From Candidatus Cloacimonadota bacterium (GTDB lineage: Bacteria; Cloacimonadota; Cloacimonadia; JGIOTU-2; B8-G9), in assembly GCA_003647765.1 (NCBI GenBank), contig QMNM01000129.1, positions 1-5,462 on the forward strand: 5,462 nt of DNA, read 5' to 3'. The position numbers and the translations under genes were made by a program. Positions 71-5,462 of the stretch are shown piece after piece. Numbering within the stretch: the first letter of the stretch is position 1; each line of letters starts with the position of its first letter. The notes below the pieces were generated by a model. The model saw nothing but the letters and a program-made list of their open reading frames with translations. It was not told where the DNA came from and made no database searches.

Positions 71-1276
71 ATGAAAATTTTAGTATTAAATTGCGGTAGT
101 TCGTCTGTTAAATATCAATTATTTAAAATGGAAGGCAGGAAAATACTTGCTAAAGGAATCGCTGAAAGAATCGGAGAGAATATCTCTTATTTTACATATA
201 AGACGGATAAAGTAAATATATGTAAGAAAGAGGTAAAGATTGTTAATCATGAACAAGCCATAGCAATGATTACAGATTATCTTTGTAATAATGATATAGG
301 TGAGATAAAACATGTAAGTGAAATTGATGCTATAGGTCATCGTTTAGTTCATGGTGGTGAAGAATTTTCTAATTCAGTAAAAATCACACAAAAAGTAATA
401 GATGTATTAAAGAAGTGTATAGAATTAGCCCCATTACATAATCCTTCAAATATACAAGGTGTACAAGCTTGTCAGAAATTATTTCCAGACACACCACAAT
501 GTGGTTTGTTTGATACTGCTTTCCACCAAACAATGCCTAAACAAGCATATTTATATGCATTACCACTGAAATTTTATAGAGAGTATAAAATAAGGAAATA
601 TGGATTTCACGGTACATCACATCTTTATGTTGCACACCAAGCCGCAGAATACATTGGTGAAAAAATCAGCGAATTAAAGCTAATTACCTGTCATTTAGGA
701 AATGGCGCATCTATTACAGCTATAAATAAAGGAAAATCAGTGGATACTTCTATGGGATTTACACCATTAGAAGGTTTGGTTATGGGAACAAGATGTGGGG
801 ATATAGACCCTGCAATTCCTTTACATTTAATGCAAAGATTCAATATGTCTATATCTCAAGTAAATACGATACTAAATAAAAAAAGTGGAATGTTAGGATT
901 ATCAGAAATTAGTAATGATATGAGAATAATAGAGCAAAAAGTAGAAGAGAATAACGAAAAAGCAATACTCGCTCTTAAAGTTTATGCATATAGATTAAAA
1001 AAATATATTTCAGCATACATTGGCGTCTTGAATGGAATAGATGCAATTATTTTCACAGGCGGAGTCGGCGAAAATATGCCTTTACTACGAAAAATGACTC
1101 TGTCAGAAATGGATTATTTAGGAATAGAATTGGATGAAGATAAAAATAATCAGTTTGTAAATGGAATTATAGATTTTACCGGAAAAAATTCTAAAGTCCA
1201 TTTATTAAAAATACCTACAAATGAAGAACTAATGATTGCTTTAGAAACAGAAAAAATTGTTAAGGTTAGCCCGTAG
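71..1276 (+). CDS. ackA: Acetate kinase
   Basis: This enzyme interconverts acetate plus ATP and acetyl phosphate plus ADP. It acts in the cytoplasm, normally with phosphotransacetylase in acetate fermentation or acetate activation. The 401-residue length is normal for the family. It has the ASKHA-fold signatures: NCGSSSVKY at residues 7-15, GHRLVHGG from 89, DTAFHQTMP from 148, GFHGTSH from 178, CHLGNGAS from 207, the DTSMGFTPLEG segment with MGTRCGD from 238, GGVGEN from 330 and NEEL from 384. The catalytic and binding residues known from the Methanosarcina thermophila enzyme (N7, R91, D148, H180, R241 and the C-terminal Glu, here E385) are all present at almost identical positions. AAAGGA at 58-63 lies seven bases before the ATG, and N7 sits at the family position, so the start is secure. 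The TAG stop lies in the first unit of the downstream heptamer array, so the array may have set the last residues. No pta gene is visible, but the left neighbour is outside the window. Confidence 0.98.
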   Translation: MKILVLNCGSSSVKYQLFKMEGRKILAKGIAERIGENISYFTYKTDKVNICKKEVKIVNHEQAIAMITDYLCNNDIGEIKHVSEIDAIGHRLVHGGEEFSNSVKITQKVIDVLKKCIELAPLHNPSNIQGVQACQKLFPDTPQCGLFDTAFHQTMPKQAYLYALPLKFYREYKIRKYGFHGTSHLYVAHQAAEYIGEKISELKLITCHLGNGASITAINKGKSVDTSMGFTPLEGLVMGTRCGDIDPAIPLHLMQRFNMSISQVNTILNKKSGMLGLSEISNDMRIIEQKVEENNEKAILALKVYAYRLKKYISAYIGVLNGIDAIIFTGGVGENMPLLRKMTLSEMDYLGIELDEDKNNQFVNGIIDFTGKNSKVHLLKIPTNEELMIALETEKIVKVSP

Positions 1277-1444: not shown

Positions 1445-1463
1445 TTCAACAAAAGTTGGAGGG
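1445..1463 (+). promoter_or_regulatory. Shine-Dalgarno site partly inside a small stem-loop
   Basis: GGAGGG at 1458-1463 is five bases before the ATG at 1469 and fixes the start of the downstream gene. The bases just before it can fold: TTCAAC (1445-1450), a four-A loop, and GTTGGA (1455-1460) give six pairs, one of them G-U. The stem covers the first three bases of the ribosome binding site. It is short and AT-rich, so any control of translation through it is speculative. Confidence 0.5.
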
Positions 1464-1468
1464 CTTTT

Positions 1469-3412
1469 ATGAAAAAATTTATTCTTGCTTTACTTGTAAT
1501 AATCTCTGTATCATCTTTGGTTATTGCAAAGTATATTGATTATGATATTGCTTTTCAAATGCTTTCAGAGGTAAAAAGTTCTGACTTTCCAGAAGCAGAC
1601 CAAATTTCAATTGAAAATACTCAAATCTATCTTGATGAACATTGTTTGGGAACTTACAAATATGATAGTTATCGCAAAATCCTTACAGAAAAAGCAAAAC
1701 GATGGAACACTGTTAGATTCTGGTATAATTCTATGTATGATACTGTTATTGTTAATCAAATTGAAATTATTAAACCTGATGGTAAGAGAGTATCATTTGA
1801 GCCAGATGAAATACTAAAACTAACCCAAAATGCTTTTATGAAATCTGCTAATATTTATAGTGAAACGAGATGGACATTGACAGGAGAATTGCCTGACTTG
1901 AATGTAGACGATATTATCCATACTGTGCAAACAAGAATAAGTCATAATACAGGAATGGAAGATAATTTCTTTGATAGAATTTCTGTGGAACATTATTCAC
2001 CTGTATTGAAAGAATATTATGAACTCAATCTACCCAAAAGTATTAAACTAAATATTCATCATATAAATGAAAAAGATGGCTTTGTGGAATTTGCTCAAAG
2101 AGAGGATGAAGATAGAAAGATTTACTGCTGGGATATAGATTGTGCTCCACATATAATCTATGAGCCAAATATGGAAAATGATGATAAATTTGCATATTAC
2201 ATAATGCTGACAACAGTTGATAATTGGAAAGATATTTCAAGATGGTATTATAGTTTAGTTGCTCCACATTTAGAGACAGATGACGAGATGAAAGCAAAGG
2301 TTGATGAATTGATTGCGGATGCTAAAACAAAAGAGGAAAAGATTAGCAAAATTTTCTATTGGACTGCACAAAAAATTCGCTATCTTGGAGTAGATAAAGA
2401 GAAAAATCGCCCTGGACTTGAGCCACACGATGTAACATATACTTTCTCAACTCGTGGTGGAGTTTGCAGAGATAAAGCCGCATTATTAGTAGCAATGTTC
2501 CGACTTGCTGGAATTCCATCTGACCCAATTCTTATTTCAGCAGGTTATCAATTAAATCCTGTTGCACCTGTGATGTGGTTTAATCACGCTATTACTGTAA
2601 CTTATGACGAAAATGGTAAGCCAGAATATTTCTTTGACCCGACTTCTGAAAATACAAAGGATTATCTACCTCAATATGAAGAGGACTCTTCATATATTAT
2701 TGCATCAGAACAAGGCGATACGCTCAGAATAATCCCAATATCGCCTTGTTCACGCAATAACACTACTATCAATATAAATATTGATGTTGATAAAAATAAA
2801 AATGCGAATTGTTCAGTAAAAATCGTATATTCCGGACTTGGCGATACTTTCATTCGTAGTCGTCTTATGAGAATGACACCTGAAAAAAAGAAAGAAATGA
2901 TTGAACAAAAAATCGCTACTATTCATGCACTTGCAGAACTTATAGATTATACAATTACAGACCCTAATAATAAGAATGAAAATATCTCAATATATACACA
3001 TTTCACAATTCCAAACTATGTTGAAGAACAAGGGAATTTTATCTTTATCCCATTAGAAGCGAGCAAATTATCTTTATCTTTTATTTATGGTTATCAACTT
3101 AATGCTTTTCAGTTAAGTGAACGAAAATATCCTTTCAAATTGCCTAACACTTTTAGTGTAAATATCATAGAGGATATAAAATTGCCATCATCTTTTGTTA
3201 ATATATCTTTGCCAGAGATACATTCTATTGATTATAAAGGATTCAGTTTAACAAAAGAGCATAATTTTAGAGAAGATAACACACGGCTAATATTTAGTTG
3301 CAGTTTTTCTGTGGATAGAATTCATTTTAGACAGGAGGATTTTCTACCATTAAAAGCTGAATTAGGCAGATTGGAACAATTAGAGAAGTTGTATATCATT
3401 GGACAGAAGTAA
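1469..3412 (+). CDS. Exported DUF3857/transglutaminase-like protein with intact catalytic triad
   Basis: The 647-residue protein starts with a Sec signal peptide: KK, a hydrophobic core at residues 4-19, and likely cleavage after A20 (LVIA/KY). No lipobox or later membrane span is seen, so a periplasmic or surface location is expected. The order is a DUF3857-like beta-rich domain (about 45-230), a transglutaminase-like core (about 285-400), then a C-terminal beta-rich part that may match DUF3858 (about 555-640). The core has GGVCRDKAALL with C333, FNHAITV with H373 and YFFDPTSE with D390. This is the Cys-His-Asp triad of the transglutaminase/protease superfamily, so catalysis is plausible. 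The substrate is unknown, and peptide cleavage, amide hydrolysis or cross-linking are all possible. The next gene, 42 bases downstream, encodes a full-length paralogue and is probably in the same operon. A perfect 13-bp inverted repeat lies at codons 414-428. The domain assignment is from recognised motifs. No specific gene name is justified. Confidence 0.93.
   Translation: MKKFILALLVIISVSSLVIAKYIDYDIAFQMLSEVKSSDFPEADQISIENTQIYLDEHCLGTYKYDSYRKILTEKAKRWNTVRFWYNSMYDTVIVNQIEIIKPDGKRVSFEPDEILKLTQNAFMKSANIYSETRWTLTGELPDLNVDDIIHTVQTRISHNTGMEDNFFDRISVEHYSPVLKEYYELNLPKSIKLNIHHINEKDGFVEFAQREDEDRKIYCWDIDCAPHIIYEPNMENDDKFAYYIMLTTVDNWKDISRWYYSLVAPHLETDDEMKAKVDELIADAKTKEEKISKIFYWTAQKIRYLGVDKEKNRPGLEPHDVTYTFSTRGGVCRDKAALLVAMFRLAGIPSDPILISAGYQLNPVAPVMWFNHAITVTYDENGKPEYFFDPTSENTKDYLPQYEEDSSYIIASEQGDTLRIIPISPCSRNNTTININIDVDKNKNANCSVKIVYSGLGDTFIRSRLMRMTPEKKKEMIEQKIATIHALAELIDYTITDPNNKNENISIYTHFTIPNYVEEQGNFIFIPLEASKLSLSFIYGYQLNAFQLSERKYPFKLPNTFSVNIIEDIKLPSSFVNISLPEIHSIDYKGFSLTKEHNFREDNTRLIFSCSFSVDRIHFRQEDFLPLKAELGRLEQLEKLYIIGQK
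2708..2751. repeat. Perfect 13-bp inverted repeat inside the transglutaminase gene
   Basis: The arm GAACAAGGCGATA (2708-2720) is the exact reverse complement of TATCGCCTTGTTC (2739-2751), with an 18-base spacer. It lies within codons 414-428, in the linker just after the transglutaminase core, and leaves the reading frame intact. The encoded GDTLRIIPISP stretch looks normal for this position in the family, so the repeat is not an obvious insertion. No U-run follows the right arm, which argues against a terminator. The RNA could form a stable intragenic hairpin. Confidence 0.85.
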
Positions 3413-3454
3413 GTCAATCCAGCAAATTGAAAAATTTAAAAAGAGGAGAAAATA

Positions 3455-5365
3455 ATGAGAAGAGCTATTATTTGCTTATTCTTCTTGATTACAATTCAGT
3501 TATTCGCCATTCCAAATTATAAAGATTACACCAAAAATGTTCCAGGATTAGATAAATATCCCAATGCTACGGCAATAAATGTGCTTACTGATATTCAATT
3601 AAATATCAATCCTGACACCACATATACTTATGAAGTGTTCTATATCAAAAAAGTACTGACTTATAAAGGCAAAAAACGATACTCGGATGTAAAGTTCATC
3701 TATAATGCTGATTATGAAAGTATAGAATTAGGTGATTGTTTTACAGTTAATCAAGAAGGTGAAAAAATCCCACTTCCACCAGAAGCAATACACGATTCAG
3801 AACATTATCTTACCTTAATTTCTCCTGATTATATCAATTTCCGTGAAAAGATAATAAATTTTCCAGGTATTGAACCGGGCTATTTTATTATAGTTAACTA
3901 TACATTAAAAAATCATCGCAAAGAATTTATTAGTGGCGTTGAACATCTAATGGAAGAAAATCCATTTTTAGAAAAACATTTCACTATCAACAGCCCAAAG
4001 CAAATAAAAATATATTATGATTATAAAAGAGATTTGGATAACCTAAAATTTACAAAAGAAAAAAATGGTAATATTATTTCATACAAATGGGTGATAAAAA
4101 ATTCCGAACTGATACCAGACGAACAGAATGCCCCTTCTTATATGATTACTGGCTGTCCAATTGTGTATAGTACAGCAAAAAATTGGAAGCAGATGAGTAA
4201 TTTCCTGTTTGACAGATTCAAAAAAGGGATATATAGAAACAGAGAAATTGAGGATAAAGCCAGAGAAATCACAAGAAATAAACAGTCAGACAGGGACAAG
4301 ATATTTGCTATTTACGATTATATTGCTAATAATTTTTTGGACAAGGAATCTGATATTACAGAACAAGATTTCAATCCACAACCATTGGAAAAGATATTCC
4401 AACAGAAATATGGAAGCACTCGGGATTTAACTGCTCTTTTTATTGCAATGGCTAATATGTCTGATATAAATGACTGTTATCCAGCAATCGTTTTAAATAA
4501 AGCTGAGAGATTTAGTCCATTTCAGCGAAACAATGCTGTAAGAAATTTCATAGAGAATCTTGTTGTGTTTTGGGATGGTATACTTATATATCCTGGGAAG
4601 GATGATATGAGATTTGGCTATGCAGGTGTTGAAAGTTGTAATTTGATTATTGGAAAGAAAAAGCCGCAATTTCAACAGTATAACTATAATCAAGACATAG
4701 TTGATTATCCAAAGAGTATTTCTTTTATAGACAAAACAATCGGGTGCAAATTAGATAATAATGGAGAGGATGCAAGTATAGATTATTTTATTGCTTATTT
4801 TGGTCCACAGGATTATAAATATAGAACACGATTTCGCAATGAGACAGAACAAAAGCGAAAAATATGGTTTTCGCAACGGCTAAAAGATAAATCGTCTATT
4901 ATTACTGATGGACCTTACTTTGAGAATATTGAAGATTTAGGCAAAGCTCTGATTATTCATTACAAATGTGATATTAGCAACTTCTTTATCAATCAAGGTG
5001 ATTTTATCTATTTTAAATTGCCTGGTGAAACAATTCCTATAAAATCTGGAGCCAAAGAACGAAAAACACCTTTCCAAATTTATAAGAATTTCTCTATAAA
5101 AGAAAAATTCATTATTGAAAATATTACAAAGGATTTTACGTTGATAAAACCAGCAAAGGATGTTTATAAAAATTTAAAGTTAGAAAATTGTCAGATAGAA
5201 TATAAATTGGAATTTAAAGAAAGTACGAATGGAAATTTGACTTTAATTAGACAGATAAATATTCCAGAATGCCTGATTAGTATTGATAATTATAAAAAAT
5301 TTACGGATTTTATAAGTGAATTAAAACAGCCACACAATTTGATGGTATTCTTAAAGAAAAAATAA
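3455..5365 (+). CDS. Exported DUF3857/transglutaminase-like paralogue lacking the catalytic triad
   Basis: The 636-residue protein begins with RR and a hydrophobic run, with likely signal peptide cleavage after A18 (LFA/IP), so it should be exported. It follows the preceding protein along its whole length: a DUF3857-like domain (about 45-225), an NWK motif at 243-245 matching 252-254 there, a transglutaminase-like region (about 260-395) and a beta-rich C-terminal part with a KTPF/KYPF match. The catalytic positions are lost. GVCRDKAAL becomes GSTRDLTAL, putting T322 where Cys is expected. The His position aligns with N368 (FIENLVVFW). The Asp position aligns with Y379 or P380 (LIYPG). The surrounding framework (RD, AL, IAM) is retained and the frame is open, so this looks like a maintained pseudoenzyme rather than a decayed gene. 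A binding, scaffold or partner role is an inference. GAGGAG at 3443-3448, six bases before the ATG, supports the start. The alignment was made by eye. Confidence 0.9.
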   Translation: MRRAIICLFFLITIQLFAIPNYKDYTKNVPGLDKYPNATAINVLTDIQLNINPDTTYTYEVFYIKKVLTYKGKKRYSDVKFIYNADYESIELGDCFTVNQEGEKIPLPPEAIHDSEHYLTLISPDYINFREKIINFPGIEPGYFIIVNYTLKNHRKEFISGVEHLMEENPFLEKHFTINSPKQIKIYYDYKRDLDNLKFTKEKNGNIISYKWVIKNSELIPDEQNAPSYMITGCPIVYSTAKNWKQMSNFLFDRFKKGIYRNREIEDKAREITRNKQSDRDKIFAIYDYIANNFLDKESDITEQDFNPQPLEKIFQQKYGSTRDLTALFIAMANMSDINDCYPAIVLNKAERFSPFQRNNAVRNFIENLVVFWDGILIYPGKDDMRFGYAGVESCNLIIGKKKPQFQQYNYNQDIVDYPKSISFIDKTIGCKLDNNGEDASIDYFIAYFGPQDYKYRTRFRNETEQKRKIWFSQRLKDKSSIITDGPYFENIEDLGKALIIHYKCDISNFFINQGDFIYFKLPGETIPIKSGAKERKTPFQIYKNFSIKEKFIIENITKDFTLIKPAKDVYKNLKLENCQIEYKLEFKESTNGNLTLIRQINIPECLISIDNYKKFTDFISELKQPHNLMVFLKKK

Positions 5366-5435: not shown

Positions 5436-5462
5436 TTACCCACAACTGAAGTTGTGGGCTAA
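5436..5462. repeat. Strong hairpin at window end, REP or IS200/IS605-end-like
   Basis: CCCACAACT (5439-5447) and AGTTGTGGG (5450-5458) are perfect 9-bp complementary arms around GA. In RNA or single-stranded DNA this is an eight-pair stem with a TGAA loop. TTA (5436-5438) can also pair with TAA (5460-5462) across a single bulged C at 5459. A GC-rich stem with a foot and a bulge, and no following T-run, is typical of REP sequences and of the subterminal hairpins bound by Y1 (HUH) transposases of the IS200/IS605 family. No transposase is in the window and the element is cut by its edge, so the assignment is an inference. A terminator after the transglutaminase pair is the alternative. Confidence 0.6.

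Follow-up and report, generated by a model that had tools for sequence, protein, structure and literature searches.

A tandem pair of DUF3857-transglutaminase paralogues in Candidatus Cloacimonadota, one with and one without the catalytic triad

The window analysed here is a stretch of 5,462 nucleotides from a Candidatus Cloacimonadota bacterium, the entire contig QMNM01000129.1 (G000:C155) of the 1.97-Mb assembly GCA_003647765.1, which comprises 360 contigs. Two genes, A and B, follow each other on its forward strand and encode proteins combining a DUF3857 domain with a transglutaminase-like region (Table 1). An earlier note, drawn from the letters of the window, had described them as two full-length paralogues with signal peptides, 42 bases apart, and this description holds for the frames and their spacing: the open reading frames (ORFs) span 647 and 636 amino acids and lie 42 bases apart. 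The signal peptides are putative; the N-termini of A, B and their orthologs display by eye a clear hydrophobic segment with an Ala-type cleavage site. Both proteins are probably exported and both genes probably co-transcribed. The two members differ in their active site, which is intact in A and lost in B.

The membership of both proteins in the family is clear from curated Pfam cut-offs. Against the DUF3857 profile (PF12969, cut-off 24.6 bits), A scores 70.9 and B 70.2 bits; against Transglut_core (PF01841, cut-off 23 bits), A scores 44.7 bits and B, with 26.2, passes only just. Profile-profile comparison aligns A and B over 592 columns with 99.8% probability and 21% identity. In A, the residues C333, H373 and D390 singled out in the earlier note form a Cys-His-Asp triad invariant in 17 orthologs. 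The same alignment places T322 opposite Cys333 and Y379 opposite Asp390 in B, as had been proposed, while the residue opposite His373 is E367 and not N368; this one-residue shift leaves the conclusion of triad loss, as read from the alignments, unchanged. Over the A/B loci and B copies, Cys-His-Asp is present in 17/17 A proteins and in 0/18 B proteins, and the absence of an active-site Cys, His or Asp from B is found alike in the profile alignment, the 17-row ortholog alignment and the predicted model of the same fold.

Table 1. Features of the window, with positions counted from its first nucleotide
Feature	Positions	Strand	Basis
Acetate kinase gene, upstream of A	71-1276	+	
Ribosome-binding site GGAGGG, 5' of gene A	1458-1463	+	read from sequence
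Gene A, DUF3857 + transglutaminase-like, signal-like N-terminus, 647 aa, triad intact	1469-3412	+	
A putative signal peptide, residues 1-20, ...SLVIA	1469-1528	+	translation, by eye
A DUF3857 domain, residues 62-223	1652-2137	+	Pfam profile
A Transglut_core match, residues 277-351	2297-2521	+	Pfam profile
A predicted catalytic Cys333, codon TGC	2465-2467	+	Cys in 17/17 orthologs
A predicted catalytic His373, codon CAC	2585-2587	+	His in 17/17 orthologs
A predicted catalytic Asp390, codon GAC	2636-2638	+	Asp in 17/17 orthologs
Ribosome-binding site AGGAG, 5' of gene B	3444-3448	+	read from sequence
Gene B, DUF3857 + pseudo-transglutaminase, signal-like N-terminus, 636 aa, without triad	3455-5365	+	
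B putative signal peptide, residues 1-18, ...IQLFA	3455-3508	+	translation, by eye
B DUF3857 domain, residues 53-217, most constrained part of B	3611-4105	+	Pfam profile, selection data
B Transglut_core match, degenerate, residues 268-338	4256-4468	+	Pfam profile
B Thr322 codon, site of lost Cys	4418-4420	+	profile + ortholog alignment
B Glu367 codon, site of lost His	4553-4555	+	profile + ortholog alignment
B Tyr379 codon, site of lost Asp	4589-4591	+	profile + ortholog alignment

The column of B that corresponds to the catalytic Cys is occupied, among 17 full-length orthologs, by Glu, Ser, Thr, Gln, Asp, Ile or Ala. Only eight residues of the transglutaminase region are invariant in these orthologs (W244, K282, Y287, P308, G320, L328, F329 and P343), with no invariant Cys, His, Ser, Thr, Asp, Glu, Asn or Gln among them. 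Because of this variable column and of the lack of any invariant residue of catalytic type in the core, it is very unlikely that B works as a transglutaminase-type enzyme.

Despite these losses, B is maintained by purifying selection. Over the 21 genome pairs with unsaturated synonymous change, the ratio of nonsynonymous to synonymous substitution rates (dN/dS) has a median of 0.093 in A and of 0.124 in B. The constraint is distributed differently in the two proteins. In the transglutaminase core, A has a mean pairwise identity of 73% and 62 invariant sites out of 163, and B an identity of 43% and 8 invariant sites out of 171 (Fisher p 8e-15 for the invariant sites). For the DUF3857 domain, the identities are 52% and 55% and the invariant sites 19 of 210 and 30 of 206, respectively. 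From these counts, the core of B is much relaxed and its N-terminal domain still constrained. The latter includes a polar motif invariant across B orthologs (K65, K66, Y70, G72, Y76, S77, D78 and Y83), and also the nearly conserved His164 and Cys95. Such a domain-wise shift of constraint, together with the dN/dS values, supports the earlier suggestion that B is selected for a non-catalytic role. PMC10211241 defines a pseudoenzyme as a homologue without the conserved catalytic motif; B is such a homologue, and purifying selection is present.

The predicted structures of A and B, built from 13-sequence alignments, both consist of a DUF3857 domain, a transglutaminase core and a mostly beta C-terminal part. 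By a wide margin, the best structural match of the two models is PDB 3kd4, with a VIA Z of 24.4 for A (root-mean-square deviation, rmsd, 3.8 over 482 aa) and 23.0 for B (rmsd 4.0 over 486 aa), the next rows falling to about 9.5. B would thus share the fold of A without its triad. The A model has a predicted local distance difference test score (pLDDT) below 50 in two active-site stretches, 306-330 and 392-404, so the sequence profiles, more than the models, carry the mapping of the catalytic site. In Foldseek, the second rank of both models went to ribophorin I / Ost1 of oligosaccharyltransferase (E 8e-8 for B, 2e-7 for A), a likeness that is domain-wise only, the global rmsd being large. The DUF3857 part of both models also matches the N-terminal domain of M1 aminopeptidases, with a Z of about 9.

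The association of the two genes extends well beyond this contig. Twelve further A-B pairs were found in the 124 Cloacimonadota genomes searched, always in the order A-B, and four more came from scanning named genomes (two of Bacteroidales, one of Delongbacteria and an unplaced metagenome-assembled genome), where A ends from 4 bases inside B to 23 bases before it. All 17 loci with both genes on the contig have them adjacent and in the same order, one with a 222-aa ORF between them, and keep the triad pattern seen here. This intervening ORF (G083, L042 7990-8658) has no Pfam match and resembles by eye an aldolase-type barrel. Relatives with B absent or broken were sought; in the relatives B is intact and adjacent to A, every complete locus across several phyla has an open, full-length frame for it, and where B occurs without A (G064, G085) it sits at the edge of a contig. 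The distance matrices of A and B correlate with r = 0.98, the pair travelling together. Given the 17/17 loci and the purifying selection on B, the live/dead pattern (live denoting a member that keeps the catalytic residues) is more than chance.

What surrounds the pair changes from one lineage to another and includes a sigma-54 regulator, a CNNM transporter, a UDP-GlcNAc epimerase, an MgsA ATPase, a biotin ligase and a SRAP peptidase, with no conserved neighbour giving a functional clue at the examined loci. Acetate kinase, upstream of A here, lies downstream of B in G050 and at no other fetched locus. Since the flanks are unrelated between lineages, the pair itself is the unit. Among 395 Bacteroidota genomes, a single one has the A-B type, a rarity which suggests that it was transferred between phyla as such a unit.

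The same genome holds a second pair of this kind (L061, G000:C10, 11820-14109). A third DUF3857 gene, C, is complete and has Cys-His; gene D follows it for 60 codons before the contig end, 72% identical to the D of relatives. In family f2, each of the six complete C-D loci has a C with Cys-His and a D with Pro at the Cys site. By eye, the signal is lipoprotein-like in C and plain in D; an anchored C and a soluble D would fit these signals, as a guess.

Tandem DUF3857 genes were also surveyed in Bacteroidota. Of 99 genomes sampled, 33 carry DUF3857 genes at E 1e-10. All 23 tandem clusters found in them had exactly one Cys-His member, a result reached by none of 20,000 label shuffles, and for three apparent singles the dead companion was found below the first threshold. 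Another 20 regions, taken from different genomes, gave 15 of 15 clusters with exactly one live member. In total, the 41 Bacteroidota tandem clusters each associate one Cys-His member with one or two dead ones. Live/dead pairing is thus general among the tandem DUF3857 genes examined, which goes beyond what the earlier note had claimed.

In a tree built by a quick method, A, B, C and D each form one clade, B and D grouping with support 88 and A and C with support 99, and the dead members from Bacteroidota come close to forming a single clade, separate from B. A single origin of all dead members fared poorly, the tree forced to one dead clade being 14 log-likelihood units worse (approximately unbiased test, AU p 0.03). 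This gives a weak hint in favour of two or more losses of the triad, of which the long branches leave us unsure.

Taken together, these observations make it reasonably probable that A and B are an ancient cell-envelope enzyme/pseudoenzyme pair, in which B is kept because its non-catalytic domains bind something that A needs. A would be a secreted Cys-His-Asp enzyme of the transglutaminase superfamily (a protease, amidase or acyl-transferase) acting on an envelope substrate. B would be its catalytically dead paralogue, most likely pairing with A, and could present the substrate to A, activate A or anchor it. Our strongest inference puts the dead member in the service of the live one, the only gene that is constantly found beside it; we also infer that the partnership is physical or functional and that B helps rather than inhibits. 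More tentatively, and with somewhat less than an even chance, tandem DUF3857-transglutaminases could generally be heteromeric, with one live and one or two dead subunits, an arrangement of at least two origins that Bacteroidota, Cloacimonadota and Delongbacteria have long kept, and so constitute a widespread undescribed envelope complex.

Several points weigh against this partnership. The complex of A and B is a proposal drawn from genomic data, and co-inheritance alone would yield a high correlation of A and B distances. Phylogeny is not accounted for in the label shuffle, and only a few clades contain the dead genes. Gene order varies in the Bacteroidota clusters, with the dead or the live member first. 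Two Bacteroidota genomes, G156 and G208, have a dead member and no other detected DUF3857 gene, and several live members stand alone, some of them fused to tetratricopeptide (TPR) repeats; neither part is then strictly obligate in the wider family.

The lone dead gene of G156 (L187 1174-4716) lies 126 bases from a papain-family gene (Peptidase_C1 + DUF4384) on the same strand, and this peptidase may be a swapped partner. Among the lone live members, L221-L240 are Bacteroidota proteins of about 1270 aa that join TPR repeats to a live DUF3857-transglutaminase, with no dead companion seen beside them. Their length, twice the usual, had suggested natural fusions joining one live to one dead member. 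This idea was rejected: 20 of 20 match the family in their C-terminal half only, and the extra half consists of TPR repeats in the three of three checked against Pfam. They consequently provide no fusion evidence for the partnership.

B could alternatively be an independent exported binding protein, for a peptide or glycan for example, that acts through its DUF3857 domain, co-transcribed with A and in the same pathway but forming no complex with it. The constraint on B does peak in this domain, including the invariant polar motif from K65 to Y83, and some dead members have no detected live DUF3857 partner. However, an independent binder explains poorly why each of the 41 tandem clusters holds exactly one live member, and why, amid neighbours that are not conserved, the live partner is the only constant companion. 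We regard this alternative as unlikely, though it deserves attention.

Dead paralogues are able to inhibit as well as to activate their live relatives, and B might be a dominant-negative or decoy regulator that restrains A until a signal releases it. The evidence from gene clusters and selection applies equally to such a role, but an active-site mimic would be expected to keep the substrate groove, and the core of B is less constrained than its DUF3857 domain (8/171 vs 30/206 invariant sites), which leaves a decoy quite improbable. Still less credit can be given to the proposal that B is an enzyme relying on other residues. Papain-like folds do include cases in which catalytic residues have migrated (PMC10318531); against this stand the absence from the core of the 17 orthologs of any invariant Cys, His, Ser, Thr, Asp, Glu, Asn or Gln, and the position of the nearly conserved His164 and Cys95 in the DUF3857 domain. 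Finally, the loss of all three catalytic residues could evoke a functionless duplicate in decay, a reading of B that is hardly conceivable: conservation (an open, full-length frame at every complete locus, across several phyla) and selection (dN/dS about 0.12) both contradict it.

The window also contains repeats. A perfect hairpin, CCCACAACTGAAGTTGTGGGCTAA, stands at its extreme end (5439-5462); 17 copies at no more than 2 mismatches occur in the genome, 3 of them exact and most with a GGGCTTC ending, as compared with 0 for the reversed control. It resembles a dispersed palindromic repeat and may break the assembly. The 7-base unit CGTAATG, present at many other sites of the genome, is repeated 8.7 times at 1272-1332, spanning the end of the acetate kinase gene about 140 bases 5' of A, and a 16-base unit, ATTTCTTGAACTCTTG, is repeated three times at the contig start (1-48).

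The partnership of A and B that we favour would add a bacterial example to a class of which the well-studied representatives are mostly eukaryotic. The pair is ancient, spans several phyla and is easy to sample, and its family has a solved structure and no assigned function. With roughly half of the tandem members dead, and the live ones perhaps dependent on a partner, an assay run on one DUF3857 protein by itself may fail. In the literature searched (mainly open-access, no preprints), no description of a consistent live/dead DUF3857 pairing was found; searches on DUF3858, BDI_1141, pseudo-transglutaminases and inactive bacterial homologs returned reviews or unrelated papers only, and among 5.4 million open-access papers a single one names DUF3857, solely for a neighbouring gene. 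Earlier work has described both dead proteins of the transglutaminase fold and pairs of an enzyme with a pseudoenzyme (PMC10318531, PMC6221367, PMC10211241).

The closest known structure, 3kd4, is BDI_1141 of Parabacteroides distasonis, deposited as a 'putative protease' and containing a DUF3857 domain. It has the overall fold of A and B and matches B (E 1.9e-8) and D (E 4.2e-6) in sequence, although its identity to B in the structural alignment is only about 14%. At the Cys position of the alignments it reads YGTP, with no Cys, so that the solved structure is itself a dead member. Kinship of 3kd4 to a Bacteroidota dead clade was sought with four proteins of that group, which gave no match. 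The Bacteroidota tandem DUF3857 / Transglut_core proteins resemble A and B in their length of about 640 aa and in joining one live with one or two dead members; they differ in that their dead members belong to clades other than B, are often two, and occur in variable order.

Among more distant systems, XPC, EPB42, FBXO21 and menin are eukaryotic, unlike B, and they are not known to be encoded in pairs beside a live paralogue. Like B, they belong to the transglutaminase superfamily and have lost the catalytic residues, and these inactive proteins have been turned to binding or scaffolding (PMC10318531). The enzyme AdoMetDC and its prozyme in Trypanosoma brucei differ from A and B by their unrelated fold and reaction, their eukaryotic host and their proven complex, that of A and B being proposed. 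They resemble the proposed partnership in that the prozyme is a dead paralogue retained to serve the live enzyme; it heterodimerises with AdoMetDC and activates it (PMC6221367).

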